From: a virus
Length of the DNA stretch: 56,311 nt
Virus record (IMG/VR): IMGVR_UViG_3300021420_000314
Span: 1-56,311 of that record
Reading direction: 5' to 3' (one strand)
The first letter of the stretch is position 1; each line of letters begins with the position of its first letter. The position numbers and the translations under genes were made by a program. This document shows, piece by piece, positions 1-56,311 of the stretch. The notes beneath the pieces are model-generated. The model searched no databases, was not told where the DNA came from, and saw only the letters and a program-made list of their open reading frames with translations.

Positions 1-841
1 CTGTGGCACCGGTAGGACCTGTGGCACCGATGGGGCCTGTCGGCCCAGTGGCACCTGTGGCTCCTGGGGAGCCTGTAGCACCAGCTGCCCCAGCAGGGCC
101 AGCTACGCCAGCAGGACCGGCTACACCGGCAGGACCGGCGGCACCAGTGGCGCCTCCCGGGCCCTCGGGGCCGACCGCCCCAGTGGCTCCTGGGGAGCCC
201 GTTGCACCAGCGGGGCCAGCGACTCCAGCGGGACCGGCAGGGCCTTCCAGGCCGACAGCACCTTGAGGTCCAGTGGGGCCGACAGCTCCTGGGGAGCCCG
301 TTGCGCCAGCGGCGCCTGGTGCGCCATCTGTGCCTGCTGCTCCAGCGGGACCTGCAGGTCCGGCAGAACCCTGTGCACCGGTGGCGCCGGTGGGTCCAGC
401 GGGACCGATCGGACCTACATTACCTTGGGGACCTTCCGCGCCGGCGGGACCGGCCACACCAGCGGGGCCAGAAGCACCTTGAGGTCCAGTCGGACCGACA
501 GCGCCATCCGCGCCGGCGGCGCCGGGGGCACCGTCTGTGCCTGCGGCTCCCGCGGGACCGGCCACACCAGCGACGCCCTGGGGTCCGGTCGGACCGACAG
601 CGCCGACTGCTCCTGGGGAGCCTGTTGCACCAGGGGGGCCTGCTGGGCCCATATCTCCCTGTGGACCTTGAGCACCAGTGGCACCCACTGGCCCACTTGC
701 CCCTTGTGGGCCAGTGGGACCGGCAGGGCCAGTAGGTCCAGGGGTACCCCCACCGCCAGTACCAGCGGGGCCGGGAGGACCAGGAGGTCCTGCAGGGCCG
801 CGTGGGCCGATAGGGCCAGCGATGAAGGTAGTAACAGTCAT
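1..841 (-). CDS. Collagen-like fibre protein (C-terminus off the left edge)
   Basis: The reading frame is open from an ATG at 841, preceded by a GAGG ribosome site, to the left edge (280 complete codons). After a leader of about eight residues (MTVTTFIA) it is nearly pure Gly-[17 protein letters not shown], with GAT and GSP triplets. One short Gly-rich break (GTGGGGT) lies near residue 28. Phage collagen-like repeats form triple-helical stalks in tail fibres or capsid spikes. The gene sits at the end of the head block, after the DUF3494 gene. No stop is present in the window, so the protein is partial. Joining the window ends suggests that the C-terminal domain is the fragment at 55834-56311. 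Collagen-like nature is certain; the exact virion position is inferred. Confidence 0.9.
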
Positions 842-861
842 GACCACCTCACAAGAAGACT

Positions 862-883
862 GCCCCGGCTTAATCGCCGGGGC
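862..883 (-). terminator. Perfect 8-bp hairpin between DUF3494 and collagen genes
   Basis: GCCCCGGC and GCCGGGGC form a perfect 8-bp stem with a six-base loop. It lies in the 58-base gap between the stop of the DUF3494 gene and the start of the collagen-like gene. On the minus strand the stem is followed by AGTCTTCTTG, which is not a strong U tract. It could be a weak terminator that trims expression of the fibre gene, or an RNA-stabilising hairpin. Confidence 0.35.
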
Positions 884-899
884 ATTCCCCAAACTCGCC

Positions 900-2294
900 C
901 TAGTCTTCCGACACCACCGAGGGGTTGGTAGGTGCCGCCGGAGGCGCGGGCGGGGTGTTGGGCGGTGACGGAGGCAGCCCAGTGGTCACAGTCACGAGCG
1001 GCGGATCCAGCGACACCCACGTTACGCTGCCGTCCTGAGTCAGGACACCGGCAACATCGCTGAACGTGGGACGCGTGGCGCCAGTCGTACCAGCCACAGA
1101 GACCTGCTGGTAACTGTTCGTGGCGCAGTCGTAGATGATCGTGCCGAGCCTGAAGAACGTGTTGCTCGCGTAGACAGCGAGGGCCGCGGCCAGGAACATC
1201 TGGACCGTGTCGGTGTCGAGCGTGACCGCACCGGTCATCGCCAGCAGCCGGCCGTTCACGTTGACGCCTGTGCCGACCGTGATCGACGCCTGCGCCATGA
1301 TCGTTCCGACGAAGTTCGTTCCGCCATTCAGCGTGGCGCTGGAGCCGACGGCCCAGTACACGTTCTGTGCCTGTGCTCCATTCAGCAGCAGCACGTCGCT
1401 GTTGTTGACGGCAGTCGTCAGCGTTGACCCGATCTGGATTATCCAGACCGCGTCGGGATTGCCCTGCGCATCCAGCACCAGGGTGCCGGTGATGGCAAGC
1501 GAGCTGGCAGCGTTGTAGACGCCAGGACGTAGAGTCGTGCCGCCGATATCAGCCGCGAGAGTCACGGCGCCCGTGCGACCCTGTGCATCGGTGTACGCAG
1601 TGTGGAGCGCGCTCTGAGCAGCTGCGGCGACGAAGTCGTTCATGTGCAGCACGCCGCTGAACAGGGCCGGGGGACCGAAGCCAGTGATGGACGTACCCGG
1701 GGACACGCCGACGTCACCGCCGACTATGGTCGCACCGGTATTCGTGATCGTTGAGCCGGCCAGAATCTCGAAGCTGCTCGCCAGAGCAACGTCCACAGCA
1801 TCCGGTACCGGATCGAACGGAACCGGGGGACTGATGATCTCGACCGAGTCTGCGCTCGACACGCCACCGACCACTGCCGTGATCTCGTAGCTGTAGATGT
1901 GACCCGGGATCACAGCGTTGTCGATGAAGTACGGACGCGAGCGGGCGTTGGCCGATGCACTCTCAGCGGTGGCGCCGGTGTTCGCCAGCGTCAGCGAGGT
2001 GGCCGTGGAGGCCATGCACACGAACCTGCCGTTGTTGCCAGCGTTCAGGAATCCCGTGACCGTGAACGTCAGGCCGATGAAAGCGTTGCTGTCGCCACCA
2101 GTGATGGTGCCGGTATACACCGCGTTCCCGGAGACCGAAGCGGTCACGCTCGAGAGAGCCAGGAGCGGCGCATCGAGGACGTTCGTAGCGTAGGGGGTGG
2201 CGGCTTCGTTGCCGGGAGCGGTACCTCGAAAGATATTGTACGAGGCGCCGGGGGTCGGGCTGCGATCCCAAGAAATCGTGATTTCGTGCGACAT
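900..2294 (-). CDS. Virion-type protein with DUF3494 (ice-binding-like) domain
   Basis: The product is 464 residues from the ATG at 2294; a GTG 13 codons upstream lies in non-coding-looking sequence. Residues 1-165 look like a fibronectin-III-like strand domain ([20 protein letters not shown]) carrying an inserted beta-rich segment. Residues about 170-365 match the DUF3494 family: [23 protein letters not shown], then [41 protein letters not shown] and [12 protein letters not shown]. That family forms a beta-solenoid known from bacterial ice-binding proteins and adhesins. The C-terminal part (residues about 385-440) resembles a small beta module of phage fibres, followed by a Pro-rich tail. 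No signal peptide is seen. Lying between capsid and fibre genes, it is probably a virion surface protein. Domain call strong; role in the virion inferred. Confidence 0.85.
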
Positions 2295-2313
2295 GAGGAG
2301 GTACCTTGTGAAC

Positions 2314-2323
2314 GTGACGTCAC
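2314..2323. promoter_or_regulatory. Palindrome GTGACGTCAC upstream of the DUF3494 gene
   Basis: A perfect 10-bp palindrome lies 20 bases upstream of the start of the DUF3494 gene. The core TGACGTCA recurs at 14393-14402, upstream of the other long-leader minus-strand gene. An AT-rich TATATA stretch lies next to it on the minus strand. It may be an operator; no protein partner is proven. Confidence 0.3.
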
Positions 2324-2395
2324 AACCCCCCACTCACTATATACACCTTTTTTCGCCGCTATGTGCGCTGGCCCACATATAAACCTGATTTTTTT

Positions 2396-2434
2396 GTGAA
2401 AAGAAAAGGGCCGACCCCTTTCGGAGCCGGCCCT
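2396..2434 (-). terminator. Rho-independent terminator after the major capsid gene
   Basis: On the minus strand a GC-rich hairpin follows the capsid stop by 17 bases. The stem pairs AGGGCCG with CGGCCCT and continues past a mismatch to a short loop. It is followed by TTTTCTTTTC, a good U-rich tract. Placement just after the major capsid gene is usual in phages and would limit read-through into the DUF3494 and fibre genes. Confidence 0.85.
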
Positions 2435-2450
2435 AGGTTTCACTCAGCCT

Positions 2451-3629
2451 TTACAGACCGGAGTTCGAGACCACCGCATACCCGACGAGGGTCGGGTTGA
2501 TGACCTGGAATCCCCAGACCTGCAGACCGCGCATCAAGGTGCCGAAGGTGCTCTCCGAGCGGAGAGTCTCGACCTTCGTCATCTGCGACGCGAACGTCAG
2601 ACCCAGCGCGTGGCCGAAGTACACACCGTACTCACCGGCTGCGAGGGTCGCGGCAAGACCAGCCGCGGCGGCGCTCGTCGCACCAGCGGTACCCGCACCC
2701 GCGCCGCTGCCGATGGGCAGCAGGTTGGACACGTACACCGTGAAGCGATCGATCATGCCCAGGCGCCCGTTGCGCGCGATGGACACTGCGTCACCGGTCA
2801 AGTACGCCTGCTGGAACGCAGACCGCTTGACCATGGCCGCTGCCCAGGCGGGCAGAACGATCCAGCGGCCCGTCTCCGGGACGCGCTGTTCGTCGAGCGC
2901 CTGACCAGCGTCGATGATGAAGTCGAGCACAGCCTTCGCCGAGCTCTTGCTGTAGCCCACGCCCTGCGTCTCCGCGACGCCGTAGAACGTGCCGGGCGAT
3001 CCCGGGGTCTGGGTCGAACGGGCCAGCCAGAGCGGAGCTCCGACGTACTTCTGCGTGCCAGCGGCGCCGAAGAAGATGACCGAGTTCGTCGAAGCGCCGA
3101 AGTTCAGCGTCTGCGACAGACGTCCCGCCTGCGGGCCGAGGTTGGCGCTCACGCCGCCGGCGCTGACCACGATGGTCGTGGCTCCGGAGACCTGGTTGCC
3201 GATGCTCGTTGCAGCGAGGATCTGGCCGTCGACGTAAACCTTCATCTGCTCAGAGGCGTTGTCCGCCCAGTTGCTCAGCAGGTCGACGTCCGCCTGGATC
3301 TCCATCACGTCGTCGAGGACGGTGTTGAAGTAGGCGCCCTGGTTGATGAACAGCTGCACGAGGTTCGAGCTCGGCCGCTGAACGGTCAGTGCCTGGTCCG
3401 TGGTGTAGGCCAGGATGTTGATCGTCGGATGGGTACGGATGTTGACGGTGTCGCCAAAGTTCCGGATCTCACCCTCGTAGTCGGTCGAGGCGATCGCGCC
3501 GAGGACGGTCGCGTCGTAGAACTTCTCGACGAACTTGCCCGACCAGATTGTCGGGATGAAAATGCCTGAGTAGGCCGGATTGGCGCTTGAGCCAAGGTAC
3601 GGCGTACCGACGGGATATACGGTCGTCAT
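2451..3629 (-). CDS. Major capsid (coat) protein
   Basis: The product is 392 residues. The ATG is preceded by a GGAG site. It follows the scaffold gene and precedes a strong terminator, the standard place for the coat gene. The N-terminus (residues 1-60: TPYLGSSANPAYSGIFIPTIWSGKF, then YDATVLGAIASTDYEGEI) and the sentence-like pattern IRTHPTINILAY and DVMEIQADVDLLSNWADNASEQM resemble phage coat proteins of the HK97-fold group with separate scaffold (P22/T7-like). A Gly/Ala-rich loop at about 310-335 (GSGAGAGTAGATSAAAAG) may be a surface insertion. No protease is seen, so processing is unlikely. Function strong from context and sequence style. Confidence 0.9.
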   Translation of the reverse strand: MTTVYPVGTPYLGSSANPAYSGIFIPTIWSGKFVEKFYDATVLGAIASTDYEGEIRNFGDTVNIRTHPTINILAYTTDQALTVQRPSSNLVQLFINQGAYFNTVLDDVMEIQADVDLLSNWADNASEQMKVYVDGQILAATSIGNQVSGATTIVVSAGGVSANLGPQAGRLSQTLNFGASTNSVIFFGAAGTQKYVGAPLWLARSTQTPGSPGTFYGVAETQGVGYSKSSAKAVLDFIIDAGQALDEQRVPETGRWIVLPAWAAAMVKRSAFQQAYLTGDAVSIARNGRLGMIDRFTVYVSNLLPIGSGAGAGTAGATSAAAAGLAATLAAGEYGVYFGHALGLTFASQMTKVETLRSESTFGTLMRGLQVWGFQVINPTLVGYAVVSNSGL

Positions 3630-3694
3630 GTCATGCTCCTGCCGGCTTGGTGACCGGTCTTATGTCCGACGCCGTGACAGCGGCGTGGGACTGG

Positions 3695-4804
3695 TTACGC
3701 GTTGTTCAGCAAGTGCGAATTCGTGCGGTCAGGTCGGACTCGTCCGTCCTTGATGGCCGCTCTCAGGTCCGCTTCGAGAGTTGCCTTCTCTGCGGGCGAG
3801 ATGCGATTTCGCTGCACACGGGAGTAAAAGTCTCTGACCTCTTGTTCAGACCAGATTCTTCCACTGGCGTTACCAGGAGCTGCCGCGCCATCCGTCCGGC
3901 CTTGGCCGGGGGCGAGTAGTGTTGCCGGATCGAGCTGCGCGGTGCGCGGCGGATCAGCAGTTACTCGGCGCTGAGCGTCTTCCTCAGCCTTGAATGCCTT
4001 GAACATCGCGACGACCCGTGTGGAATCGCCTGATTCAAACGCATTCATCAACCCCACTTTGCGGGGTACACCAGAGAATATATCGATCTGACTGGCCCAG
4101 TCAAGGAACTCCTGACTGCCGTTGATCAGTACAGCGTCAGCTCCGAAGGCTTCATGGAGGGCTTCCCAGACACGGCCCTGTGAGTCCGCGGCAGCGCGCT
4201 GCACGGCAGCGCCGGCCAGCTGCGCGGCCTGACCAGCCTGTTGCGCGACGGGGGCAACAGCCTGCTGGGCGGCGCGAGCGGCAACGTTGCCGATCAGCTC
4301 CACCAGATCAGGACCGAAGTCAGACATCTGCTTGTCGGAAACACCGAACGAGCGCGCCATGTCGGCGGCCGTCGGCGCGGGGGCAGGGGCGGGCGCGACG
4401 GGAGCCGGCACAGAGCGCATCTGCTCGATCAGGCGAGCCTGTTCCTGGATCAGCCGATTGCGTTCGGCCATCTCCTGGTTGTACTTGCCCTGCAGCACCT
4501 TGTAGCGCTGCTCGAATTCGTTCACCGGTGCCGCGGACACGGCGGGCTGAGCTGTCGCGCTCGGGCCGGGCGCCTGGGGCGGGGGATTCGCGGGCGGTGC
4601 GGCGGCCTGCGGCGGCGCCGGAACAGCGTCGGGCGGCGGTGCAGCACCGACGTTCGGCAGGTTCGGAGGCGGCGCGGACGGCGCCTGGCCCTGCTGCGGC
4701 ATACCGGGGATCGGCTCGCCGGCGGCGAAGGCTTTGATCTGAGCGTTGGCCTGCTTCACCTGGCGGCGAGCGGCGGCGGGCATGTTCGACTGCGGAGCGT
4801 TCAT
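3695..4804 (-). CDS. Capsid scaffolding protein
   Basis: The product is 369 residues. The N-terminal third is rich in Pro, Ala and Gln (residues 30-95). A charged helical segment predicted as coiled coil follows (residues about 95-135, EFEQRYKVLQGKYNQEMAERN). A second helical region covers 160-270, and the C-terminus is basic and charged (SPAEKATLEADLRAAIKDGRVRPDRTN). This architecture, together with the position between portal and coat genes, is typical of internal scaffolds that bind coat through a helical C-terminus. The start overlaps the stop of the preceding gene (ATGA), indicating translational coupling. Confidence 0.85.
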   Translation of the reverse strand: MNAPQSNMPAAARRQVKQANAQIKAFAAGEPIPGMPQQGQAPSAPPPNLPNVGAAPPPDAVPAPPQAAAPPANPPPQAPGPSATAQPAVSAAPVNEFEQRYKVLQGKYNQEMAERNRLIQEQARLIEQMRSVPAPVAPAPAPAPTAADMARSFGVSDKQMSDFGPDLVELIGNVAARAAQQAVAPVAQQAGQAAQLAGAAVQRAAADSQGRVWEALHEAFGADAVLINGSQEFLDWASQIDIFSGVPRKVGLMNAFESGDSTRVVAMFKAFKAEEDAQRRVTADPPRTAQLDPATLLAPGQGRTDGAAAPGNASGRIWSEQEVRDFYSRVQRNRISPAEKATLEADLRAAIKDGRVRPDRTNSHLLNNA

Positions 4805-5007
4805 GAGTTCTCGTTCTTCACTAGGAGGTTGAGGAGGATATCGTATGCGCGGGCCTCGCCAATGTTGGCTTCCCGGTCGAGCGCATCGTAGAGGATCTTG
4901 TGCACAGCATCGTCACGTTTGACCTGTAACATCACCACGTAATCCCTGTAGACGGGTGTCTGTCTGAACTGCGCGACGAGGCGCACCATGTCTGTTCGGG
5001 AAGCCAT
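4801..5007 (-). CDS. Small helical protein of the head block
   Basis: The product is 68 residues, charged and apparently all helical (MVRLVAQFRQTPVYRDYVV, then LDREANIGEARAYDILLNLL). No family is recognised. The gene is coupled at both ends: its start overlaps the upstream stop (TAATG), and its stop overlaps the start of the scaffold gene (ATGA). The tight coupling between portal and scaffold suggests a structural or assembly role, which is inference. Confidence 0.75.
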   Translation of the reverse strand: MASRTDMVRLVAQFRQTPVYRDYVVMLQVKRDDAVHKILYDALDREANIGEARAYDILLNLLVKNENS

Positions 5008-5261
5008 TACCAGCGCAGCGGGTTGCCCAGGGCCTCAGTGACGGTGTCGGAATCTTCCTTGTCCGGCCCCTTCTTGAGGTAGTCCTTGGTGTAAACGCGG
5101 GAGGGCGGAGCGCCCTCGCCGCCATGACGACGCCCGAGGTCGGCAGCTTGGCCCATGCGAATGTCCTGAGTTTTCAGGACCTTTGTGCCGGCTGACTGCT
5201 CTTCTTTTGTGTGGGCGTCGGGCTTCTGAACGTGGTCTGTTGGTGCGTTGGTGAAGCTCAT
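5007..5261 (-). CDS. Small hydrophilic head-block protein
   Basis: The product is 84 residues, highly polar and rich in Lys, Asp, Gly and Thr, with few hydrophobic core residues and probably partly disordered. It contains RVYTKDYLKKGPDKED and a C-terminal EALGNPLRW. The gene lies between two coupled neighbours (ATGA and TAATG overlaps). It resembles the two genes before it in being a small basic, low-complexity protein between portal and scaffold. Function unknown; a minor head component is possible. Confidence 0.75.
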   Translation of the reverse strand: MSFTNAPTDHVQKPDAHTKEEQSAGTKVLKTQDIRMGQAADLGRRHGGEGAPPSRVYTKDYLKKGPDKEDSDTVTEALGNPLRW

Positions 5262-5560
5262 TTGCTGTTACCACGCCGGGTGTTGAGGTGGTTGGGACGG
5301 TTCGGCTTCGAGGGGCGCCCCTCGATGTGGACAGGCCCCGTGGTGCGCAGCGCGTCACGGCGCCCAGGGAAGTCCACGGCGGGAGAATTGATAATCGCGG
5401 TCGGCGCCGGCGGCAGCGGGACGATCGTGTCCTTGCTGAAGTGTTTGCCGTGCTCTTTGCCACGATGCACATCCTTGCGGAACTCGGGGATGTGCGTCGT
5501 CGAGTTCTGGAAGGTCGTGCCGAAGGAGGCACCGCTTGTCGGTGGCTTCTTGTGCTTCAT
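5258..5560 (-). CDS. Small basic head-block protein with one IVP..PT motif
   Basis: The product is 100 residues, basic, with HRGKEHGKHFSKD and a C-terminal RPSKPNRPNHLNTRRGN. Residues about 45-65 read TIVPLPPAPTAIINSPAVDFPG. This matches the repeat found twice in the next upstream protein (IVPxxxGPTxTCNDPxI) but without the cysteine. The start and stop both overlap neighbours by ATGA. Its low hydrophobic content suggests an extended or disordered protein. Function unknown; the shared motif suggests that the two proteins bind the same partner, perhaps the capsid lattice. Confidence 0.75.
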   Translation of the reverse strand: MKHKKPPTSGASFGTTFQNSTTHIPEFRKDVHRGKEHGKHFSKDTIVPLPPAPTAIINSPAVDFPGRRDALRTTGPVHIEGRPSKPNRPNHLNTRRGNSK

Positions 5561-6069
5561 TTGGTGTCGAATCCGTGATCCGGGTGGCTGTTGTTGCCCC
5601 CGCGTACCGGCTTGCCCTTCTTCTCGTAGGACTTCTTCAGGCCGTAGCCCTCGCGTCCACCGCCATCGTCGGTGTCGCCGACCGTCTTGATGCGGTCCGC
5701 CGTCAGACGCCGCATGTTCGAGGCGATGACCTTGCCAGTTGAGTCCGGCAGACCATGCTGAAGATCGTTGACCGGCTTGTGGATCGGTGACTCACCGTAC
5801 GGGAAGTCGATGGCCGGGTCATTGCAGGTGATCGTCGGGCCAGCCTTCTCGGGGACGATCGTGCGAGCGCCGACATCTTTGTGCGCGCCATGGCTGGGCT
5901 GAGTCTTGCCGCGGTTGTCCTTGCCACGCATGAGCTTGTTGTGCCCACTCGTATTGGTCTCGCCAATGACAGGATCGTTGCAGGTGAAGGTCGGGCCTTG
6001 CTTCTGCGGGACGATCTGCGCGCTACCGGAAACTTTGCCGGCGTGGGTGACGTTGCGTGGGTTGGCCAT
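5557..6069 (-). CDS. Head-block protein with duplicated IVP..TCNDP motif
   Basis: The product is 170 residues from the ATG at 6069, chosen because AGGA lies eight bases ahead; an ATG seven codons upstream has no such site. Two copies of an IVPxxxGPTxTCNDPxI segment lie about 60 residues apart, each with one cysteine. The second copy continues as DFPYGESP. The DNA of the two copies is also alike (around 5818-5850 and 5970-6005), so this is an internal duplication. The rest is polar and Gly/Lys/Asp-rich. A third, diverged copy lies in the next gene. No known family is recognised; a minor capsid or decoration role is inferred from position. Confidence 0.75.
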   Translation of the reverse strand: MANPRNVTHAGKVSGSAQIVPQKQGPTFTCNDPVIGETNTSGHNKLMRGKDNRGKTQPSHGAHKDVGARTIVPEKAGPTITCNDPAIDFPYGESPIHKPVNDLQHGLPDSTGKVIASNMRRLTADRIKTVGDTDDGGGREGYGLKKSYEKKGKPVRGGNNSHPDHGFDTK

Positions 6070-6118
6070 GTTGTTGTTCCTGGGGGGCATAGTGCCCCGT
6101 AAGCATCATACGGTGGGT

Positions 6119-8509
6119 TTACCCACCAGGCAAGTGTGTAGAGACGTTGTTCATTGGAGTGACCTGTGGCGCCACAGGTATGCCCTGCACGCCGCCAGCG
6201 CCCTGCGGCGCGGCGCCAGAGGGTGCAGGCTGATTGTTTCCAGTCGGATTCTGCCCCACGCCTGGCATGCCCAGCAGCGCACCGGTCGCACCCGGGGGCA
6301 CGTTCCCCTTGAACTGCACGTTCACACGCGGCGGCGGTGGGGGTGGCGGAGGCGGGGGTGGGGGCGGAGGCGGCGGCGGCCCGAAAACGTTCCCAGGGGG
6401 TCCCGGCTGAACACCAGGAGCCAGTCCCGGAGGCGGCGAAGTAGGCGCGTCATCCGGGTTCTTGATCTTGAGCTCGATCCCGAGGTTGTCCGCGATGGTC
6501 TGGACGAGGGTTGCGATCTCCCCTTGGCCGAGTAGCGGAGCCAGCGCAGGATTGCTGACCAGGTTGAGGAACTGGAGCTGCTTGGTGAGGTCCTGTTCTT
6601 GCTTCGCGGCATTTCGTACCCCGTCGACCACGATCTCTTCGTCACCACGGAGCATCCCCGTGTTGTCGGTGAGCATGATCATATCGTAGAGCATGTGGAG
6701 CATCGGCGTGAAGACGTCCTTGTCGATGTTATCAGCGACATTCTGGAGCGTCTTGTTGGCGTTGTTGATCAACATCGAGAGGCCGGACGCAGTGCGTCCA
6801 GCTCCGCCGGCCGGCCCCTGGCCCGTCAAATAACGCGGGATGGTCGATACGTCATCGAGCATCACCGAGAACTTATCCAGGACGGCCATTAGCTCCTGGG
6901 AGTTGGAGGTGGGCTGGTAGAACTCGACAGGCTTACGGTTAGGGTTAGCTGGATCCCCGATGTATTTCCACCGTTTCCACGGGTAAAGAGCATCAGTCTC
7001 AGTCGGCGAAATAAGGTCTTCATCGTAGATCACCTGGGGACCCGAGGCGATCGACATGTTGTTCACGAGCGCGCGCAGCGTCGCGTTGATGACGTCGGTC
7101 AGGTCATTCGCGAGCGCGGGGATGCCGTTGCCGTAGAGCGAGCCGGGCTGCTTGTCGAAACTCGTGACGTAGTACGGCACGCGCTTGCGCGGGGAGGGAT
7201 TCAGCATCACCTTGAAGATGTGTTTGTCGACCATCCACGCCGTGATCATGTACGGTTTGTAGTCGTCCTTAACACCCGGGACACCAAATTCCTTGAGATA
7301 TAGGCCCAGAACGGGACCGTGAAACTCGATAGCGTTGATGTACGTGTCATCGAGTATGTTGTTCCGTCCTTCCATGAACGCCCGCTCATAATCGAAAATC
7401 TGTATCCATTCCTTGAAACCGCGTGCCTGATAATTTTGAATGATCTGTTTGATGTCCTCGTCTCGATACCCAGGGAGACCGATGAGGTTGTAGAGGTCAT
7501 CAACAGAGAGGCGCTGACGTTCAAAAACCTCAGTCTGCGTAATATGGGTAGCGCCCGGGGAAAACCAAATATCCCACGGACTGACGCGGTCCCAGAAGAA
7601 CCGAGCCTCTTCATGTGCGGAGATGTCACCTGCTTTGCTCCACTTCAGGGCGGTGTGCCGGCGGGTGACCGGACCCTTGATGACCGCGTACTTGTAGACG
7701 GGCAGGTCGGACAGGAACTCCGACAACGCGTCGTAGAAGCGGCCCTTCTCCAAGATCTCATCCACCTTGCGCATCGCGTCGTGCGCCTCCTCGCCGGCCT
7801 TGCGGCGCTCGGAGAGCTTCACGGCCTCGTAGAGCTGCTCGAGCCGGTCCTTGATCATGTGCTGGGGAACCATCATCCCCTGCTGGTTGACCGACTGAAC
7901 CTCGGTCATTACCAACCGCTTGATTTTCAAGTCGATCGCATCGGGCACGACGGGGTCAGCGGTCGGCTCGAAGCTCCAGGGGCGGTCCGAGTTCATATAC
8001 ACATTGCGCAGAAGAGCAGTCGCTCCTCGGCACTTCATCGTCATAAGACGCGAGTACACCGCGGAACCGCCGAAGCTCTTGATCTCCTGCAACTTTGTTG
8101 CGTCATACTGGCCGTTGTATGCACGCATGTCCCGGATGAGCTCGTCATCCACCAGGATGACGCGGCGGTGTCGAACCGCCTTCTCGAAGCGCGAGCGGAT
8201 GTACCGCGCGAGCTCCGACATCGCCTCTTCGGGGAGTTCGGACAGGCTCTGCGACTTGCGCTCGGCCGCGTCCATCTCGTCGTTGCCGACCACGCGCAAC
8301 AGTCCGCGCCCCTGGTGCCTCATGGGCTGGGACTTCTCGTCACCAAAGACGCCAGGTAGCGGCGACGCGGCGCGGGCCGAGTTGCCCATGATGGCAATCT
8401 GGCCCAAACCAGGCGTCTGGCCGTTCGGGAACCCTGTTCCGCCGCGGCCGGCGTTACTCGTTCCCTGACCTGTGTCGATGGTGCCTTGCGGGATCGGCAG
8501 GACAGCCAT
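6119..8509 (-). CDS. Portal protein
   Basis: The product is 796 residues with an AAGGTG site before the ATG. The central region (about 90-640) has the pattern of large podovirus portals: an N-terminal helical clip, FWDRVSPWDIWFSPGAT, DQ..GLPGYRDED, YYVTSFDKQPGSLYGNGIPALANDLTDVINATLRALVNNMS, and QGPAGGAGRTASGLSMLINNANKTLQNV, a signature seen in portals near the tunnel loop. The portal is the dodecameric vertex ring for DNA packaging and tail attachment. The C-terminal 100 residues are unusual: a run of 17 prolines near residue 710-727, then Gly/Pro-rich sequence, probably a flexible extension. It lies between the terminase and scaffold regions, as expected. Confidence 0.92.
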   Translation of the reverse strand: MAVLPIPQGTIDTGQGTSNAGRGGTGFPNGQTPGLGQIAIMGNSARAASPLPGVFGDEKSQPMRHQGRGLLRVVGNDEMDAAERKSQSLSELPEEAMSELARYIRSRFEKAVRHRRVILVDDELIRDMRAYNGQYDATKLQEIKSFGGSAVYSRLMTMKCRGATALLRNVYMNSDRPWSFEPTADPVVPDAIDLKIKRLVMTEVQSVNQQGMMVPQHMIKDRLEQLYEAVKLSERRKAGEEAHDAMRKVDEILEKGRFYDALSEFLSDLPVYKYAVIKGPVTRRHTALKWSKAGDISAHEEARFFWDRVSPWDIWFSPGATHITQTEVFERQRLSVDDLYNLIGLPGYRDEDIKQIIQNYQARGFKEWIQIFDYERAFMEGRNNILDDTYINAIEFHGPVLGLYLKEFGVPGVKDDYKPYMITAWMVDKHIFKVMLNPSPRKRVPYYVTSFDKQPGSLYGNGIPALANDLTDVINATLRALVNNMSIASGPQVIYDEDLISPTETDALYPWKRWKYIGDPANPNRKPVEFYQPTSNSQELMAVLDKFSVMLDDVSTIPRYLTGQGPAGGAGRTASGLSMLINNANKTLQNVADNIDKDVFTPMLHMLYDMIMLTDNTGMLRGDEEIVVDGVRNAAKQEQDLTKQLQFLNLVSNPALAPLLGQGEIATLVQTIADNLGIELKIKNPDDAPTSPPPGLAPGVQPGPPGNVFGPPPPPPPPPPPPPPPPPRVNVQFKGNVPPGATGALLGMPGVGQNPTGNNQPAPSGAAPQGAGGVQGIPVAPQVTPMNNVSTHLPGG

Positions 8510-9370: not shown

Positions 9371-10783
9371 TTATGTCCAGCCGGCGGCCGAGGGAGCGCC
9401 CTTACTATACGCATTCCGCCTGACTCGCACCAGTCTGGCGAGAACATTGCCCGAATATCCCAGGCAGGCGTACTGGAATGCGTCAGCTATGTCCGACCAC
9501 GGATGGGTCTTATCAGGGACCGGATGAAGCTCCCCATCCTTCTTACGGGTGTACCGGTACTTGGATCGGAGCGCGCGTATGAGTGTACTGCAGACGGGCG
9601 AGACGAGCACCGCGGCGGAACCATCACGCTGCTGTAATAGCCACTTCTCCACCGCGCGGAGGCGTGGATCGATGTCATTGGTCTGGGCCGGCTGTGCTGA
9701 TAGTCCCAGGCGTTTGAGAGCCGCAAATACGGACTCCTCCCCAATCTGACTGCGCGCAATCCCGGAAGGGTCACCCACCACACCAACGGGCAGGCGTTGA
9801 TACTCAGGACGAGCCAGGACAGGACGGAGTTGTGTGGACACGAATTGTTCGACACCTATGTTCTCCCCGATGACCTCGTCCAGGACCACAAGACGCCCTC
9901 TTGCATCCATTTGGCAGAGTACGCACGCAGGATGGCGTCCGAAGTCCATCCCGACAAGAACCATGGTCCCCGGTATCGGGACCAACGGCTCTTTCGCCAC
10001 ATGAAACGAGTCGCGGAAGGACGCCCTAAATACAGCCTCACCTGCAAGAGAAGGTGCAATTCTGTTATCGACGTACTGATCCACCCACGCTTGAGAGTTG
10101 TTTTCAATGAGCTCATCGTAGTATCCCCGGACCAGGTTCTCGATGTTCTCTGCGTTGGCTTCGCGGGCGCCCGGCTGTACGAAGTATCCCCAGGTAGTGG
10201 GAAGCGGCTTGTCGTCGAGAATCCTGTCCTCGAGTATCTTATTCCAAGCCGAGTCCTCGTCGAAGCTGTTGGTTTCGCCGATGAGACCATGCCACGTCGG
10301 GCCACCGTGAGCCATTGAAGGATAGCGTCCGCAACGCGAAAGCACGTCCATGAGAATGCGCGGTTGCAGCTCACGCAATTCTGACATCCACGCCATCGTG
10401 ATATCCAGGGACAGAAGCCTCTGAACATTCTCGGGGGTATCCAGGGGCATGAAGATCCACTCGGACTCGATGTCATTGAACTTGATCCAGATGGTTTTGT
10501 CGGCCTCCTTCCAGAGTACCATGGGGCCGATCAGCTCCAGGATCGTCTTGAGGCAAGTAGTCTTGAGCTGAGGCAGCGTATTACGAACAATGACCGCGCG
10601 CGTGCGCCGTATACCATCAGATGGATCGGGCGCTTGCTGCTGTGCGCGACAAAGAAGCTCCATGACCATGCCACTCGATTTGCCACTCCCAACGGGGCCT
10701 CGCACGATTCGGACACGCTGATCCGAGGCCATGAACGTTTGGATGGTTGCGGGCGCGTTGTAGGTAAAATTGCGCTCAGCCAC
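9371..10783 (-). CDS. terL: Terminase large subunit
   Basis: The product is 470 residues, starting with GTG at 10783; the start overlaps the preceding stop by eight bases. The ATPase domain shows Walker A GPVGSGKS at residues 29-36 and a Walker-B-like strand near DITMAWMSELREL. The nuclease domain shows MVLVGMDFGRHPACVL (first acidic residue), VVLDEVIGENIG and VVGDPSG in the middle, and WSDIADAFQYA near the C-terminus (last acidic residue). This is the two-domain motor that pumps DNA into the prohead and cuts concatemers. Neighbours are the small subunit upstream and portal downstream. Packaging type cannot be told from sequence alone, but the apparently circular map fits headful packaging. 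Confidence 0.95.
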   Translation of the reverse strand: MAERNFTYNAPATIQTFMASDQRVRIVRGPVGSGKSSGMVMELLCRAQQQAPDPSDGIRRTRAVIVRNTLPQLKTTCLKTILELIGPMVLWKEADKTIWIKFNDIESEWIFMPLDTPENVQRLLSLDITMAWMSELRELQPRILMDVLSRCGRYPSMAHGGPTWHGLIGETNSFDEDSAWNKILEDRILDDKPLPTTWGYFVQPGAREANAENIENLVRGYYDELIENNSQAWVDQYVDNRIAPSLAGEAVFRASFRDSFHVAKEPLVPIPGTMVLVGMDFGRHPACVLCQMDARGRLVVLDEVIGENIGVEQFVSTQLRPVLARPEYQRLPVGVVGDPSGIARSQIGEESVFAALKRLGLSAQPAQTNDIDPRLRAVEKWLLQQRDGSAAVLVSPVCSTLIRALRSKYRYTRKKDGELHPVPDKTHPWSDIADAFQYACLGYSGNVLARLVRVRRNAYSKGAPSAAGWT

Positions 10784-36216: not shown

Positions 36217-36360
36217 CTCACCCCCGCTGGCGGGGCCCGCTCAGTCGGGATAGCCAGATGTGGATCAGCCGGCCAGTACCACAATCGCGATAAACCCCGG
36301 CAGTCGGAGCTCGTCGTACTTGCGCTCGCGGCAAAACCTCCCGGCGGGTGATCCGTCCGG

Positions 36361-37875: not shown

Positions 37876-40245
37876 ATGAAAAAGTTCTTCGAGCGGGTCC
37901 TGCCAGATGGGGGGTCGTATAGCCTACTCGCGCTGAGCAAGGGGTCACCGCCGCTAGAGCTGAACGGGATACCCACGTTCGATGCCCTGGTGCACCGGGC
38001 TACCCAGGCCAGCACGAGTCCGCTAGACGTCTACTATGCGGTTGGTTCCTACAAGCCATCTGGACGGCGGGGTGAAGAGGCGCTTGCGAAACGCGCCCTC
38101 TTTCTCGATCTCGATGCTAAGGACTTCGGTTCTAAAGCTGGCACCCTTACGGCACTTAACACATTCGTACGCAGTGTGGGCCTACCAGCTCCGGCCATCG
38201 TGGTCGATTCGGGTGGTGGATACCATGTCTACTGGCCGTTTGCGGAACCTCTGGAGGTGGCCGCTTGGCGAGCTCTGGCCCTGGCGCTCAAAGCGGCATG
38301 TAAGTCAACTGGCTTCGACGCCGATCCTACCGCTACCGCAGACGCTGCGCGCGTTCTACGGATACCCGGGACCCTTAATCACAAATACATACCGCCGCGT
38401 CCTGTTCAAGTGCTACAGGATACTGGCGCGGTGTTTGAACCCGCGGATCTTTTTCGTGCCCTCCAGCCCCAACAAGTTGCCCTGGCCGATACCGCCCTCC
38501 CCGTACCAAAGAGTGCACTCGATACAAGTATCAACGACGACCTCGCAGGGGGGACATCGTATGACCCGCTTACTAGCACCGAAGTAGAGTCGATGCTGAA
38601 GGCGATCGTTATCCCCTCGACGGGTAACGAGCGCCGCAATACGTGGACTCTGGTGCTCGCGGCCCTGAAAGACTGGGACCAGGGCGAGGAAGGTTTCAAG
38701 CTGGCAGACGCTTGGAGTTCGTCCCAGGCTGCGTACCGCGGCACCGCCGACGTGCGCAAGACCTGGGACTCTTTTGTCCGTTCCGATGGACCCAAGGTCA
38801 CGATTGGAACCATCGTCAAGATGGCGAAGGACGCTGGCTGGTCGGGACCTGTCGCGGAGGATGATCATGACGTCGTCGATGTCAGCTCTCAAGGGTTCAT
38901 TGCGGAGGCTGTACGCGCTGATGTTCGCGCGCAGGAGTCTCTGGCGCGAGGCCGCAATCGCCTTACGATTGAAGAAGCCCGATCAACTCTCACCTCCGAT
39001 TTTATATATGTCGAAAACCAAGGAACTTATTACTCTATCGGCAGACGGAACTGTCTGGGTAAGGAAGTCATCGACGACCTCAACGCCTGGCGCATGCCAC
39101 GAAGCAGCAACGGAGCATCGCTCTCTGCGGTCACCATCCTCAAGAATTCTCCCAACACTCGGCAGGTGGACTCACTGGGCTTCGCGCCTGGTCAGAGCTT
39201 TGTGTTCTCTGAGAACAACCGTCGTTACGTCAATCGGTATGTGGATCCGCCACCTGAAGTGGTCCCGGCAAAAGCAGAGGCTGAACTGTTTCGAGATCTC
39301 TGCGATTACCTTTTTCCCCGCCCGGGGGATCAAGCCTTCAAGCGCTATTGGCTGCAGTATATGGGGCACGTCGTACAGAAACCGCAGACCAAGATCGCTA
39401 CGGCGCTTCTTTTCATCTCTGAGAAGGAAGGTATCGGCAAGACCCTCGCCCTCTACGACATCCCCCGTCTCCTGGTGGGAGTAGACAATGCTACGAAGGT
39501 TACAAATGATGACCTTGAAGGTCGTTTTACAGGCTACCTGGGAAACGCCCACCTCCTCCATCTTGAGGAGATCCACGTCAACGGTCACTGGAGCTCTTCT
39601 AAGATTGCCAACAAGCTCAAGGCTGTTATTACAGACGCTACTGTGCGAGTTGAGCAGAAGGGACTCGACGTGTACAACATACCGAATCGTCTTGTCGTTA
39701 CTGCCACGTCGAACTATAACGATGCTATGTTCATCTCCTCCAGACAGGAGCGACGATGGGGAATCTATGAGCTTTCACCCGATCGCGCCTATAGTGAATC
39801 CCAGCACCGCAAATACTTTGACCTCATCCACCGTTTCCTGGCGAGCGACCGGGCGGCAGGAGTTCTACGTTTCATCTTTGGACGTATCAACCTCGCTGGC
39901 TTCAACCCACAAACCCCCCCACCGATGACGCTGGCCAAGCAGCGCATGAGCGTGCTGTCGATGTCAGAGGAATGCCAGGTGATTCATGATGCTATGGCAA
40001 ATGGTCTCACACCGTTTCATCGTGACCTATTTCAAATCGATGAGGTGCGCGGACTGCTTAAGACGGAACTCAATAAAGTTGTTTCCTCCAAGTGGGCCGC
40101 CCAGCAGCTTCTGCGAGTCGTGCCGGATGCAACGATGACACGTACACGAATTGGCCAGGGAGTAGTTCGAGTCTGGTGCTGGAAGAATCAGTCCCAGTGG
40201 AGGGGCGTTATCGGTGACACCATTAAGAAAGAGCTCGAGCGTTAG
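37876..40245 (+). CDS. Primase-helicase (AEP-like primase fused to superfamily 3-type helicase)
   Basis: The product is 789 residues. The N-terminal part shows primase-polymerase motifs: FLDLDAKD (D78, D80), SGGGYHVYW (H117) and ADAARVLRIPGTLNHK (about 154-169). A central linker with PriCT-like helices covers 240-330. The C-terminal helicase shows EKEGIGKT (516-523) as Walker A, HLLHLEEIHVNG as Walker B, and VVTATSNYNDAMFIS as motif C. This makes primers and unwinds DNA for the family A polymerase. It is the last rightward gene; its stop codon overlaps that of the convergent giant gene. Confidence 0.88.
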   Translation: MKKFFERVLPDGGSYSLLALSKGSPPLELNGIPTFDALVHRATQASTSPLDVYYAVGSYKPSGRRGEEALAKRALFLDLDAKDFGSKAGTLTALNTFVRSVGLPAPAIVVDSGGGYHVYWPFAEPLEVAAWRALALALKAACKSTGFDADPTATADAARVLRIPGTLNHKYIPPRPVQVLQDTGAVFEPADLFRALQPQQVALADTALPVPKSALDTSINDDLAGGTSYDPLTSTEVESMLKAIVIPSTGNERRNTWTLVLAALKDWDQGEEGFKLADAWSSSQAAYRGTADVRKTWDSFVRSDGPKVTIGTIVKMAKDAGWSGPVAEDDHDVVDVSSQGFIAEAVRADVRAQESLARGRNRLTIEEARSTLTSDFIYVENQGTYYSIGRRNCLGKEVIDDLNAWRMPRSSNGASLSAVTILKNSPNTRQVDSLGFAPGQSFVFSENNRRYVNRYVDPPPEVVPAKAEAELFRDLCDYLFPRPGDQAFKRYWLQYMGHVVQKPQTKIATALLFISEKEGIGKTLALYDIPRLLVGVDNATKVTNDDLEGRFTGYLGNAHLLHLEEIHVNGHWSSSKIANKLKAVITDATVRVEQKGLDVYNIPNRLVVTATSNYNDAMFISSRQERRWGIYELSPDRAYSESQHRKYFDLIHRFLASDRAAGVLRFIFGRINLAGFNPQTPPPMTLAKQRMSVLSMSEECQVIHDAMANGLTPFHRDLFQIDEVRGLLKTELNKVVSSKWAAQQLLRVVPDATMTRTRIGQGVVRVWCWKNQSQWRGVIGDTIKKELER

Positions 40246-40259
40246 TAGTTCACGAGCTC
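40231..40259. terminator. Hairpin over the convergent stop codons
   Basis: GAGCTCG (40231-40237) and CGAGCTC (40253-40259) form a 7-bp stem with a 15-base loop that contains both stop codons of the convergent genes. On the minus strand it is followed by TTTCTT; on the plus strand by TTTG only. It probably serves mainly the leftward transcripts. Confidence 0.55.
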
Positions 40260-43200
40260 GTTTGCGCGCGGATCCCGCGTAGGCTGTCCGGTCGCAACTG
40301 CTTCCTGTCCCTTCACTCCCACCTGGGCCCGGCGGAAATCCGAGTAGGAGATCTTGTGACCCGGGTTCAACGTGTTGAAGTGTTGTATCCGATCCATGAT
40401 CGAACCCTTCTGACCCTCGGGCGAAGTCATGTACTGGCTGATCAGCTCGAACTTGCGCTGATCCTCCCATGCCTTGTACCCGCGCACTGTCCCCTCACGC
40501 TCCTGCACATTGGCCACACCCGATGGCTTGAGGCCGAGCGCCTGCCACACCGCGGCGCCGGCTGACGGCGGCGTGAGCTGCGCACCCAGGGTAGATTGAC
40601 GTCCGCTGGAGTAGAGCTGCCAGGCTTTCTGCACGTCGTGCATCGCCTTGATGGGCACCATGTGCATGAAGCCGCCGAGCATGTCGCCACGCTCAAAGGC
40701 GTCCCGCGCACTGGTGTACTGATCGGCAACCATCTGAGGCATCGGGCCCAGCATGGTGCCGGCGAACGCCATCAGCTTGTCCTTCGTCGAGCCTAGGAGG
40801 TCAGGAGGATCATGTAGGAACAGATCCGATAGACCCATGCGTGACGAAAGATCGAAGCCAAGCAGACGAGGTAGGCCGCCAGTGATTGCTTGTACCGCAG
40901 CTGGGCCCACCAGATCAGAGACGAAGTGACGAATCGAAGTGTCGAGGTCAAAGTAGTTATCGGGGTCATTGAAGAGCTTGTTGTATGCGTAGACAGCCAG
41001 GCGCACCGGCTCGAGTACTGCACCCTTGATCACGCCGGCGAAGATCGACGTGCCGAGCACCATGCCCGCCACAGTCTTCGCCGCCTCAGCGCGCGACTTG
41101 GTCTCAGCATACACCATGTTCTTGATGTTGGAGTACAGCAGGTGCGCCATGCCCTGGGTGTAGGTCCGGAACATCGTGATCGAGTTGAAGTTGCGCCCCA
41201 CCATCTTGAAGACCCGGCTCTTGTTCCCCTGGCCGTAGTCCATGTGGGTCTCCTTTACGAAGTCCAGCGCCTTACTGAGGTCACCACCAGTAAGCTCAAG
41301 ACCCGCCAGACCCGTGGAGATGCGATTGAATACATCCGCCATGTGAGGTAGTAGGCGGGCATAGTCGAACGCACGCGTTCCCACATTGCCAAAGAGTCCC
41401 TTACCCTGAGCCATGTTTCCAAGCTCAGCGTAGAACGAGGACTGTAGGAGGCCCCGGTCCATGAGTTGCGCGAGATGGGAATTCTCACCCTTGGCCCACT
41501 TAGCCAGGCGCGGATCTTTCTGAACTGCACGGAGCACCGCCTCTTCAATCCGATTACCGTTGAAGTGCGCGTCAGTTCCCGGAAGCCCATAGAGGTGCTC
41601 CATAAAAGCCTGGTGGAATGCAGGGCCCGAGACTACTCGCATCGCGTGTCCGAAGGAACTGAACGTCTTGCCGTAGCCCCAGCGGGCGCCTGCCACAGGC
41701 ATGGCGGTTGTAAAATTCTGCGTCATCCAGATCCCTGCGTGGGACGGACTCGCGAGGAAGTTCATGAACCCCAGCTTCGCCATGGCACTGTTGAGCGCCG
41801 ACTTCGGCTGGCCGTACTGCGAGATGTCCTGGGTGAGCCGCTTGTTGAGCTCGTCCATCACCTGGCCGCGGCGGGTAACGGTCTTCTGATCGACGCCGCC
41901 CTCCGGGTTCTTCGCCATGTCGCGGATCTTGCCGAGCGCCTCGCCGGCCTTGAACATGGTCGACAGGTGGCTGGTGTTCCATGCCAGTGACTGGGCATGC
42001 TCCGCGAAGTTGCGTCCCATCTCCTCGGGTTTCACACCACCGCTACCCTTGCGGGCGAGCTTGGAGGCTGCGTAGGCAGACCGGCTGGCCAGGATAGACG
42101 TGTAGGTCTTCTTCAGCGCGGCCACCAGGGCGTCAGTCTCCGGGCCAGCGCCATTGCGAGTGAGCCGGCGGGTGGCTTCGGCAACAACGTTCTGGACTCC
42201 ACCAGCAAGTGGGGTGGAATTCTCTGAAAGAACTTTCTGTGTGACGGGGCCAACATCGAAGCCCTGACGGCGCAGTGCCTCAGCGTGCTCCTGAGCCTCC
42301 ACAGCGTTCGAGTGCATGCTGACGTAATCAGCCTTGTAGTTGACATTGAACTTGCCTCCGAGCTCCTCGATCTTGGCGGTGCTCTTTGGCGACAGCGCGC
42401 GGATCTTATCAGAGAACGCCTGGGCCTCGGCCTTGGTACCGAATGACCGGTCACCTTCTGGCTTGACCTGCACTACGAGATCTCCGTGCCGCCCCAGGTG
42501 GAAGTACGGCCCGTCGATCTGGTGGAGACTCGCGGTGTTGTTGAGCGAGTCGATCAGCCCCTTGTTGCGGTCGCCAACATCAATCAGCTTGCCCGTGCCT
42601 ACCAGCGACTCATAGTCACCCGGGCTGCGCGCAGAATACAGGAGCGCGCGTTGCGCCTGAGTAACATCCCGGTCACTGTAGCTGTCCAGCGATACGTCAA
42701 TAGCAGCGCGACGCATCTGTTTCGTAGCCCATTCATTCCAGTCGCGCTCCTTCGTGTAGACGCCCTGCGCCTCGGGCGAGAGCTTGTTCCACCGCGCCGT
42801 GAAGTCGTCGTAGCGAGCCTGGAACTTCGGCTCAGCCTGGATGCTCACAGACTGCAGATGCGGTGCCTTGGTGGGATCGATCCCCCAGATGGTGGTGTCC
42901 CGCTGTAGTGCGCCAAGGCGGCTGTCCTCGTCCTTTCCCAGGAAAGAACGGTCCCTGGAAATTTCACCGGCACGACCCAGCATCTTGCCCGAGATAACGG
43001 CCTTCTGCTGCTCGGTGTTAGCCAGTTGGTTCATCGGATTCAGGTGGTCGTCGCTGCCGAACCAGTGCGAGTTGGTTCTCAGGATCTGGTCGTGAGTCTC
43101 ATCCGCAAGGACGACACGGCGGACCGCAGCCGGCACCCGGCCGCGTACAGAGCGATTGAAGTCCCGTGCAGTATCTGCGGCCCTGTCTCCAACCGTGCGA

Positions 43201-51004: not shown

Positions 51005-51422
51005 TATTTTTGTTCTCGAAGAGCCAGGGACATTCGTTCCGGTACATCACGTACCAGTGCAGCGCACCACTAGGATGCGCGCCAGGGACGGCTAGACGTT
51101 CCGTGAAACCCAGTCTACCAGCGATTTCAAGGGACTGCACGTTCTTGGACTGGATGACACCGATGAGGCAGTTGTAGCCCCACTGGCAGTACGGAACCCA
51201 GAAGCCGCGGCGCAGGAGAGTCAGGTTGATCCCACCGGGCTCAGAGGCCACGTGGAACATGCAGCTCGAGTCTTGGTGGAAGTCGTAGCCGAAGGCTGCA
51301 ACCAGCTCACCATCGACCTCACGGGCAATCCCGTGGAAGTCCGCCACACGAACAAGCCCCGAGCGCGCCGCCATCCAGGTGTAGACGCGCTCGGGGTCTG
51401 CGATCAGTCGATCAGAAGCCAA
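50967..51422 (-). CDS. GNAT-like acetyltransferase in the structural region
   Basis: The product is 151 residues. FHGIAREVDGELVAAFGYDF and CQWGYNCLIGVIQSKNVQSL, then EIAGRLGFTERLA, match the GNAT core, with N..S..IA..LGF as the conserved block. This group is common in phages next to internal virion genes. The substrate is unknown. It overlaps the next gene by 38 bases and the previous by 11. Confidence 0.78.
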   Translation of the reverse strand: MASDRLIADPERVYTWMAARSGLVRVADFHGIAREVDGELVAAFGYDFHQDSSCMFHVASEPGGINLTLLRRGFWVPYCQWGYNCLIGVIQSKNVQSLEIAGRLGFTERLAVPGAHPSGALHWYVMYRNECPWLFENKNNERQRQPITGRT

Positions 51423-53265: not shown

Positions 53266-55182
53266 TTATGTCTGTGTCGGCTGGACCATATCACGTCGAA
53301 GCTCATCGGCTGTCTCCGCCATCGTGAACGAGTAGACGGGGACGTTCCCTACAAGCCTCACCTGCCAGGCGTCGCTCTTGAAGCCGCTCGGCAGACGAAT
53401 GATCTGTTCCGTAGAGATAGTGTACTGGAAAAGGGTGTACCACGTCGAAGTCAAATCTCTGGCTTGAATCAATACGTTGACGCCGCCGGCGGAGTTCGAG
53501 TACTGGCCAAGATTGTAGAGCTCCGATCCACCCAAGGGGTTACGGATCTCGGGCGGCGGGATATACCCCGAAATAGGTGGGAAGGCAGGCTGCGCGAGCG
53601 TGCGCACACCGTTGATCGGGAATGAGTCGATCGGGCTCAGCTTCTTGAGGATGCGCCGGCCATTGTAGTTCGTGTAATCGCTCAGCTGTGAGGCCGAGAT
53701 CGTGATCGTGCTCGGCTGGAACTTCAGGCGGAACGCGCCGAAGTTCACTGGTTTCATCAGGTCGAACTGCTTCGACTGCCAGGTGTACGTATACGGAATG
53801 CTGGCTGGCGGGTCCCACAGACGCACCTGGTTCGACTGGAGCAGATACACATCTCCCGAGTACGCATCCTGTTGGATAGCCGTGACATTAGAGAACCGAT
53901 CAAGTTGCGTAAGTGGCGTAGAGCTGTCAGTCGGCGAAAAGATGAACCCTGTCGAAGTCGTGCTGAATCCGATGTACTCCACACCATAGGGCACCGCATA
54001 GACAGTCGTTGGGCTGAACAGGTTCTGCCACTCTTCGCGGGTGAACAGCTGCCGGGTCACCAGCTGGGTCTGTCCACCGGTATTCAGGATGATGCCCTGC
54101 GGACTGGCATAGTAGACACCGCTGATGGTGGTGACGATGCTGCGCCGGCTGACGCAAGGGTCCACAGAATCCAGCTTCTGGAGCGTGATATTGAGTGGGT
54201 TCATGCCTTCCGCGAAGTACGGATGGCTCGTCGTCATAACGAGAATGCAGTTCTGGTATACCGCCAGCCCAACGATTTCAGTTTGGCACGTCTGGATATA
54301 CTGCACAGGCCAGGCGTGCGGTTGGAACGGCTGCGACATCCATAGATCCCGGCCGGAGAAACCGACCAGAAATCCCCCTGGGTGCGCCACGAGACCTTGG
54401 AGCGTAGTCGGCGGACCGGTCCAAGTAAGTGACTGCATCGTGAAATTATTCGCCACAGTGACGTCAGTGTTGTTGTCATTGTAGGTTGTCGTCCCTATAG
54501 CAATGTCCGCAACGTGGAAGTACTGGTTCGTGGTGTTGCCAGTCACTGTCCGGTAGATGCGGATCGTGGTGACGTTCGTATTCGCAGGAACCGCCGTGTC
54601 AAAGTTTCCCAACACCCAAGTCCCGTTTTGCCCGGTGGCAACCGTTGCCGCACCAGGGGGGCCCTCCTCGCCGTAGGCAGACACAAACGTGTATGTATAT
54701 GAACGGGTCGTCGCAACTCCAGGAGGCGGAGTGACAGAGATCTGATTGACGGGGGCCGGAATGCCCAGAAGGAACGGCGCGTTGCCGCCGGTATTTCCAG
54801 CATTGATACGAGCGCGAGTGTTGTATTGAGGCGCCCCGCCAAGATTGAAGCTGTCGCCAGTCCAGTAGTACCGCTCGAAGCTATCCTGAAGAACCGGTGT
54901 ACGAACGAAGTCCACGTTTGCATCGAAGAATCCTAGCCAGGTGTCAGCGCCCCCGATCGGGATCGGCGCGTTGACACTCTGGGGCAGCCGGAACGCCCGG
55001 AGGATGGGATGCGCCGGGATGCTGGGGTTGAAATCGAAGAGCAGCTGGGTCTCATGGAAGCCGCGTAGCTCCCCGGAGAGGAGCTTTGCGTTTGCAGCCG
55101 TCGTCGCAGCGTTCGGAGGTAGCAGCCGCGCGGACCAGCGCGGCATGATACCGGTGAAGTTTTCAATCTTGAGGATGGTCAT
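53266..55182 (-). CDS. Tail hub/nozzle-type protein (beta-propeller-like)
   Basis: The product is 638 residues with a GGGGTGG site. It opens ILKIENFTGIMPRWSARLLP, then NAATTAANAKLLSGELRGFH, a sentence shared by many podovirus tail proteins. The body is beta-rich with repeated blade-like units (LVAHPGGFLVGFSGRDLWMS, EIVGLAVYQNCILVMTTSHP, SGVYYASPQGIILNTGG, SGDVYLLQSNQVRLWDP). T7 gp12-like nozzles have this plan. It is the last tail gene before the lysis cassette. The exact counterpart is uncertain. Confidence 0.75.
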   Translation of the reverse strand: MTILKIENFTGIMPRWSARLLPPNAATTAANAKLLSGELRGFHETQLLFDFNPSIPAHPILRAFRLPQSVNAPIPIGGADTWLGFFDANVDFVRTPVLQDSFERYYWTGDSFNLGGAPQYNTRARINAGNTGGNAPFLLGIPAPVNQISVTPPPGVATTRSYTYTFVSAYGEEGPPGAATVATGQNGTWVLGNFDTAVPANTNVTTIRIYRTVTGNTTNQYFHVADIAIGTTTYNDNNTDVTVANNFTMQSLTWTGPPTTLQGLVAHPGGFLVGFSGRDLWMSQPFQPHAWPVQYIQTCQTEIVGLAVYQNCILVMTTSHPYFAEGMNPLNITLQKLDSVDPCVSRRSIVTTISGVYYASPQGIILNTGGQTQLVTRQLFTREEWQNLFSPTTVYAVPYGVEYIGFSTTSTGFIFSPTDSSTPLTQLDRFSNVTAIQQDAYSGDVYLLQSNQVRLWDPPASIPYTYTWQSKQFDLMKPVNFGAFRLKFQPSTITISASQLSDYTNYNGRRILKKLSPIDSFPINGVRTLAQPAFPPISGYIPPPEIRNPLGGSELYNLGQYSNSAGGVNVLIQARDLTSTWYTLFQYTISTEQIIRLPSGFKSDAWQVRLVGNVPVYSFTMAETADELRRDMVQPTQT

Positions 55183-55193
55183 TCGACCACCCC

Positions 55194-55565
55194 TTATGCG
55201 AAGCCGACTTCGCCTTCAGCCTCGAAGCTGAGCGCGGTCGTCGTTCCGGCTCCGCCGACCAGGAAGTCCGTCGAGTCCAGACGCAGCGCGCCGTACCAGT
55301 CGACGTAGGAGTTCGCTGGGATGATGGTCCCCTGGAACGCGAACTCGGTACCCGCGGTATTGGCGCCGGTGGCACCGACCCACATCGAACACGTCACGGC
55401 GCCAGCCGTCTTGTTCACGACGCGGATGTGCTTGAGCAGGAAGTACGGCTGCGTCAGCGTGAAGCCGACAGGTCCCGAGAGAGACGTGACCGTCGGATTG
55501 AGGATGTTCGTGGTGAGGGTAGTCGTCAGAGCGACCGGGCCAAACCGAACCGGTTTATTGAGCAT
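55194..55565 (-). CDS. Virion-type protein, beta-rich
   Basis: The product is 123 residues. It is beta-rich: RFGPVALTTTLTTNILNPTV, then YFLLKHIRVVNKTAGAVTCS, MWVGATGANTAGTEFAFQGT and DSTDFLVGGAGTTTALSFEA. This style is seen in small phage tail or head proteins. It sits between the fibre fragment and the tail hub. No specific family recognised. Confidence 0.75.
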   Translation of the reverse strand: MLNKPVRFGPVALTTTLTTNILNPTVTSLSGPVGFTLTQPYFLLKHIRVVNKTAGAVTCSMWVGATGANTAGTEFAFQGTIIPANSYVDWYGALRLDSTDFLVGGAGTTTALSFEAEGEVGFA

Positions 55566-55833: not shown

Positions 55834-56311
55834 TTAACCTATGTGGTAGCAAAGAACAATGGGATTGGCGATACCTTTCTGGCTGGTAGTAGTGAAGCCA
55901 GCAGTGTTGCCGGCTATATCAAATGTGATCGTACCGCTTGCAGCAGCAAATCGAGCAGTGACGTTCGCTACTCCGGTGGTGCCGCCATTCTCCATAGCGC
56001 CATCGGAAACTGGAACAAACTGCGCCCTGGCAGGCTGGATGGCAGCCGGAAGCCCAGTGATAGTGAACGTGCCTCCGGTGCTGGTGATATTGCATGCTGG
56101 TATAACCAGCATCACCAGAGCACCGATGCGACGCCATACCGCCGTGGCGGTGATAGGAGTCGTGCCACCCGTCGGTGTCGCAGTAAATGTCCCTGAGTCC
56201 GGGGTCATATCCACGAGTGCAGCAGCCGTCGGGCCTCGCCCTTGCAGCTTCGGTGCGGCGTTGTTAGACCATTGAAAGACTGGCGTGCCCAGTGTTGCTA
56301 GTGCGTTGTTA
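55834..56311 (-). CDS. Tail-fibre C-terminal domain (N-terminus off the right edge)
   Basis: The frame is open from the right edge to the stop at 55834 (158 codons visible). It reads NALATLGTPVFQWSNNAAPK, then GPTAAALVDMTPDSGTFTAT, TGGTTPITATAVWRRIGALV and TFTITGLPAAIQPA. The GTFTxTxTG..V.W.R.G..V.L.IP pattern recurs at the C-terminus of many phage fibres. An internal ATG (56214) would skip about 32 conserved residues, so the gene most likely begins beyond the window. It may be the end of the collagen-like gene at 1-841. Confidence 0.75.
   Translation of the reverse strand, partial: NNALATLGTPVFQWSNNAAPKLQGRGPTAAALVDMTPDSGTFTATPTGGTTPITATAVWRRIGALVMLVIPACNITSTGGTFTITGLPAAIQPARAQFVPVSDGAMENGGTTGVANVTARFAAASGTITFDIAGNTAGFTTTSQKGIANPIVLCYHIG

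Follow-up and report, generated by a model that had tools for sequence, protein, structure and literature searches.

Comparison with described phages

Bcep22-like podoviruses have been reported to be circularly permuted (PMC9144972). The genomes of the Burkholderia phages JC1, BcepIL02, and DC1, which are of this kind, measure 61-63 kb, a size similar to that of the genome from which the stretch analyzed here derives (hereafter the window, a virus record of 56,311 bases), and encode a homologue of its internal virion protein p511 at 28-29% identity; they are distant from it, their terminase being absent among the best matches listed. By analogy with Bcep22-like phages (PMC9144972), headful packaging of the window phage is likely. 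Rhizobium phage RHph_TM3_14A (MN988472), a circular record of 60,889 bp, shares 46.6% identity with the window in the terminase and 34% in p511, and its capsid gene, small genes, and p511 gene are consecutive across the record origin, as we propose for the window. On the other hand, its annotation shows neither a collagen nor an ice-binding gene behind the capsid gene, unlike in the window, and its terminase gene runs in the opposite direction. A near-identity search among phages gave no match. Collagen-like proteins of phages have been described before. For example, E. coli O157:H7 prophages encode collagen-like phage side-tail proteins (PMC3368898), which, like the proteins discussed here, have both a collagen stalk and a C-terminal domain and are products of phage structural genes, the likeness being one of description, and SPP1 gp12 is a collagen-like capsid accessory protein of 64 amino acids, the gene of which lies before the capsid gene (PMC6316719).

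Gene content of the window

The window encodes, on the minus strand, a terminase large subunit (9371..10783; phrog_2, 1.8e-19), an SU10-type portal protein (6119..8509; PF23899, 1.2e-12; phrog_332 and phrog_1216), a major capsid protein (2451..3629; phrog_267, 3.4e-40), and p511 (53266..55182; phrog_511, 3.3e-124), the landmark behind the gap discussed below. An SU10-type portal, an adaptor, and a gp77-type fibre adaptor, by which SU10/GP4-type podoviruses are recognized, were all found once the sequence adjoining the window was included. We consider it very probable that the window is an incomplete contig from a circularly mapped podovirus genome of ~62 kb, opened in its structural module, and that its two ends belong to separate fibre genes. 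As such it is an ordinary podovirus genome in fragments, and its two collagen-stalk genes, gene A and fibre B, are of a known kind: both belong to the virion module and contain a long Gly-X-Y stretch with PF01391 above its cut-off. The left end cuts gene A, and what comes next, from the adaptor and tail genes through the collar-fibre gene to the beginning of fibre B, is missing from the window.

Reading frames at the two ends

On the minus strand, an open collagen frame runs from an ATG at 841 to base 1, comprising 280 codons and a lone G, with a Pfam Collagen match of 1.1e-38 and Gly at 84 of the 280 residues in a single register; this is the 5' part of gene A (1..841, 280 of about 407 codons), which continues past base 1 in two other contigs, L015 and L075. 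At the other end, the minus-strand fragment 55834-56311 starts with one T, which precedes 158 open codons (NNALATLG...CYHIG); the stop that closes them ends at 55834. The earlier note had read these letters correctly and had interpreted the ends as one collagen-stalk fibre gene cut open with the loss of one (or 3n+1) base, arguing that direct joining gives a stop after four codons, as we also found (V-T-T-H-stop), and that a missing base would make GGT (Gly) and fuse the frames. The two ends do lie on the same strand, both within fibre-type genes, and one offset fits; the fit is, however, uninformative. Insertion of A, C, G, or T at the junction produces the same open 439-codon frame each time, so that all four bases serve equally well and Gly is not singled out, and because one of three offsets always works for two unrelated frames, the frame fit is no evidence. 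Contig ends in collagen repeats can thus mimic one cut gene, since no more than two added bases are ever needed to bring two frames into register.

Sequence beyond the left end

A search with the window capsid protein identified L015 (IMGVR_UViG_3300050821_006228, 7,840 bp), which encodes an identical capsid protein, matches window positions 6195..1 at 99.5% identity, and extends 1,618 bp past base 1 through a C-terminal domain, a stop, and adaptor genes. Outside the collagen gene, L015 and the window are identical over 5,354 bp. The differences between them (1-841 versus L015:5355-6222) are five substitutions, four of which are synonymous, and a 27-bp in-frame indel, all in the collagen gene, where they may represent either true repeat variation or an assembly effect. 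The last bases of L015 led to L075 (IMGVR_UViG_3300021420_000235), from another metagenome. Across base 1, the two contigs align over 1,788 bp at 99.7% identity; L075 shows one difference from window positions 170..1, and the sequence that it adds past base 1 amounts to 5,322 bp. It is of note that its overlap with the window itself is 170 bp only, which, like the other metagenome, counts against our explanation. In both contigs, gene A leaves the Gly-X-Y pattern soon past base 1 and continues into its own C-terminal domain of ~105 amino acids (PYSVFTTFVV...STWHRIG) before a stop, giving a complete protein of about 407 amino acids. Behind collagen A, L075 carries two adaptor-type genes and a small tail gene. 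These are followed by genes for a BNR-like protein of about 490 amino acids, a gp77-like fibre adaptor (PF23148, 3.8e-8), and a collar-type tail fibre (phrog_8469), after which fibre B, the second collagen-stalked gene, begins; a match to PF24175 (1e-5) lay just under its cut-off.

These contigs decide against a single gene spanning both ends. The separate stop ending the collagen gene, which the earlier note had itself named as a result that would refute it, is present in L015, L075 agrees, and in neither contig does the open frame of collagen A lead into the domain of the right end. In place of the loss of one (or 3n+1) base, there is a gap of at least 5,322 bp in which adaptor, tail, and collar-fibre genes lie between the window ends. 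A cut single gene would also leave a phage devoid of adaptor and tail genes, which occur nowhere else in the window. L015 and L075 refute this reading for the population that they sample, its sole rescue being a private deletion in the strain of the window, and we regard it as very improbable. In practical terms, a one-base joining of the ends would create a chimaeric fibre and conceal the adaptor and tail genes that lie in this stretch of 5.3 kb or more.

Circular gene order in relatives

Six long relatives, from 54.1 to 64.7 kb, were compared with the window at the level of individual genes. All seven contigs follow a single circular order of genes and have seven different cut points, in line with the circular map that had been suggested from the window ends. 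The circular maps are supported by end repeats in G003 (127 bp, exact), G007 (123 bp, exact), and G004 (194 bp at 99.5%), whereas the window itself, as an incomplete contig, has none. The absence of an end repeat would suit a complete linear genome with physical ends, but genes are cut at both ends of the window, the near-identical L015 and L075 continue past its left end and so refute that end as physical, the relatives have the same circular order with other cut points, and the Bcep22-like podoviruses introduced above by their p511 homologue (28-29%) are reported as circularly permuted (PMC9144972); we therefore find a linear genome hardly credible. Between capsid and p511 genes, the order in the relatives is adaptors, small tail gene, gp77-like gene, collar fibre, and fibre B, a set present in all six and entirely lacking from the window, so that a directly fused phage would miss its adaptors. 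From capsid to p511, the relatives measure 4.8-8.0 kb and the window 3.6 kb, a value that rises to 8.9 kb when the 5,322 bp beyond base 1 are added, which brings the genome to at least 61.6 kb. A search of genome_contigs with the capsid protein returned no relative and hence no host or prophage hint.

Identity of the right-end fragment

The right fragment (55834..56311, minus strand) is the C-terminal part, or knob, of a fibre gene, as anticipated from the letters, since the same domain forms the C-terminus of intact fibre proteins in eight other viral contigs at 37-53% identity. Based on gene order, homologues, and fold, fibre B is the gene to which this knob most likely belongs, because the six long relatives place fibre B just before the right-end genes. 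Searching viral_contigs with the exact right-end sequence gave no bridging contig, and the fibre B N-terminus as a query returned only the contig L075, which carries both this N-terminus and the collagen stalk. As no contig spans the stretch from stalk to right fragment, the link between knob and fibre B is one of order and homology. The view of the right end as the head of a collagen-stalked fibre is thus probably correct, the fibre being fibre B and not gene A. The fragment is followed by a small gene of 123 amino acids (55194..55565, minus strand), which lies between fibre B and p511 in the relatives G003 and G008, and a homologue of which directly follows the knob domain in L005.

Two of the eight intact proteins (L004 and L005) have collagen stalks, with long other sequence separating stalk from knob, and their N-termini are unlike that of fibre B. 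The fibre B of L034 contains a middle module common to L002 and L003, both of which end in the knob domain. Among close relatives, fibre B proteins have hardly anything but the N-terminus in common, and none carries the knob domain, which fits exchangeable knobs and is no proof of a link between knob and fibre B. Because the stretch from stalk to knob is unseen, the map could also be circular with the right fragment belonging to a further fibre gene, located between fibre B and the 72-aa gene, and G003 does have about 700 bp from the end of fibre B to the 123-aa gene. However, fibre B nearly reaches p511 in G007, L010, and L013, where there is no further gene, and the intact homologues L004 and L005 join collagen and knob in one frame, so that we consider a separate fibre gene unlikely.

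The knob profile found no match among PDB sequences, nor did the right-end domain among named phages. A structural model of the knob (pLDDT 82) resembles Zamilon Zav_19, the reovirus sigma1 head, and the TP901-1 receptor-binding protein, with TM-scores to viral fibre heads of 0.4-0.57, values that limit the claim to the general kind of fold. The fibre B knob is probably a beta-sandwich that would bind a receptor. Taken with the knob as its head, fibre B would most likely be a tail fibre in which the attachment end is conserved, the collagen stalk varies in length, and the knob can be exchanged.

Gene A and the slot behind the capsid gene

Gene A probably encodes a predicted trimeric collagen stalk on the virion, which may be mounted on the head, as the gene lies behind the capsid gene. 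SPP1 gp12 offers a possible precedent for such a location, both proteins being collagen-like and encoded next to the major capsid gene, although gene A differs in length (about 407 versus 64 amino acids) and in lying behind and not before the capsid gene. The collagen A C-terminal domain as a query matched only L015 and L075, and its fold prediction (pLDDT 36) gave no usable model. The slot behind the capsid gene spans 69-912 bp in every other related locus that was measured, compared with 2,884 bp in the window, where it is filled by gene A and, between it and the capsid gene, a gene for an ice-binding-like protein (900..2333, minus strand; Pfam PF11999, 1.3e-61). One may speculate, with some doubt, that the ice-binding-like protein and the ~407-aa collagen protein together form a head-mounted adhesive fibre, the second collagen fibre serving the tail. 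A partial homologue of the ice-binding-like protein is encoded elsewhere in G004 (47794-48294). Frames resembling HNH homing endonucleases by eye occupy the slot in G004, G008, and L050, and by the same inspection the interval between the capsid and first-adaptor genes looks like an insertion hot spot.

Cause of the contig break

The suggestion that the contig was opened inside a repeat is borne out at the left end, where base 1 falls in a tandem array of the collagen gene with a 36-bp period (L015:6147-6259, Tandem Repeats Finder), of which positions 1..76 (minus strand) are the part within the window, as placed by alignment. Within that stretch, moreover, near-identical contigs vary in the collagen gene only, and the assembly probably stopped here because the edge lies in a strain-variable tandem repeat. 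No exact repeat of at least 22 bp was found in gene A; a break due to a long exact repeat was therefore rejected, and strain variation in the imperfect tandem array is the likelier cause. No repeat is visible at the right window end.

Several further features of the window were recorded. A Proteo-phage-1 RNA lies at 36221-36305, behind the helicase gene (RF03044, 66 bits). An N-acyltransferase-like gene (50967-51422; phrog_4470) is located inside the structural module and is kept in RHph_TM3_14A as well as in most relatives. At its end, the structural module encodes a giant protein of 2,230 amino acids (40242-46934), which has almost no family matches and is kept in all long relatives.
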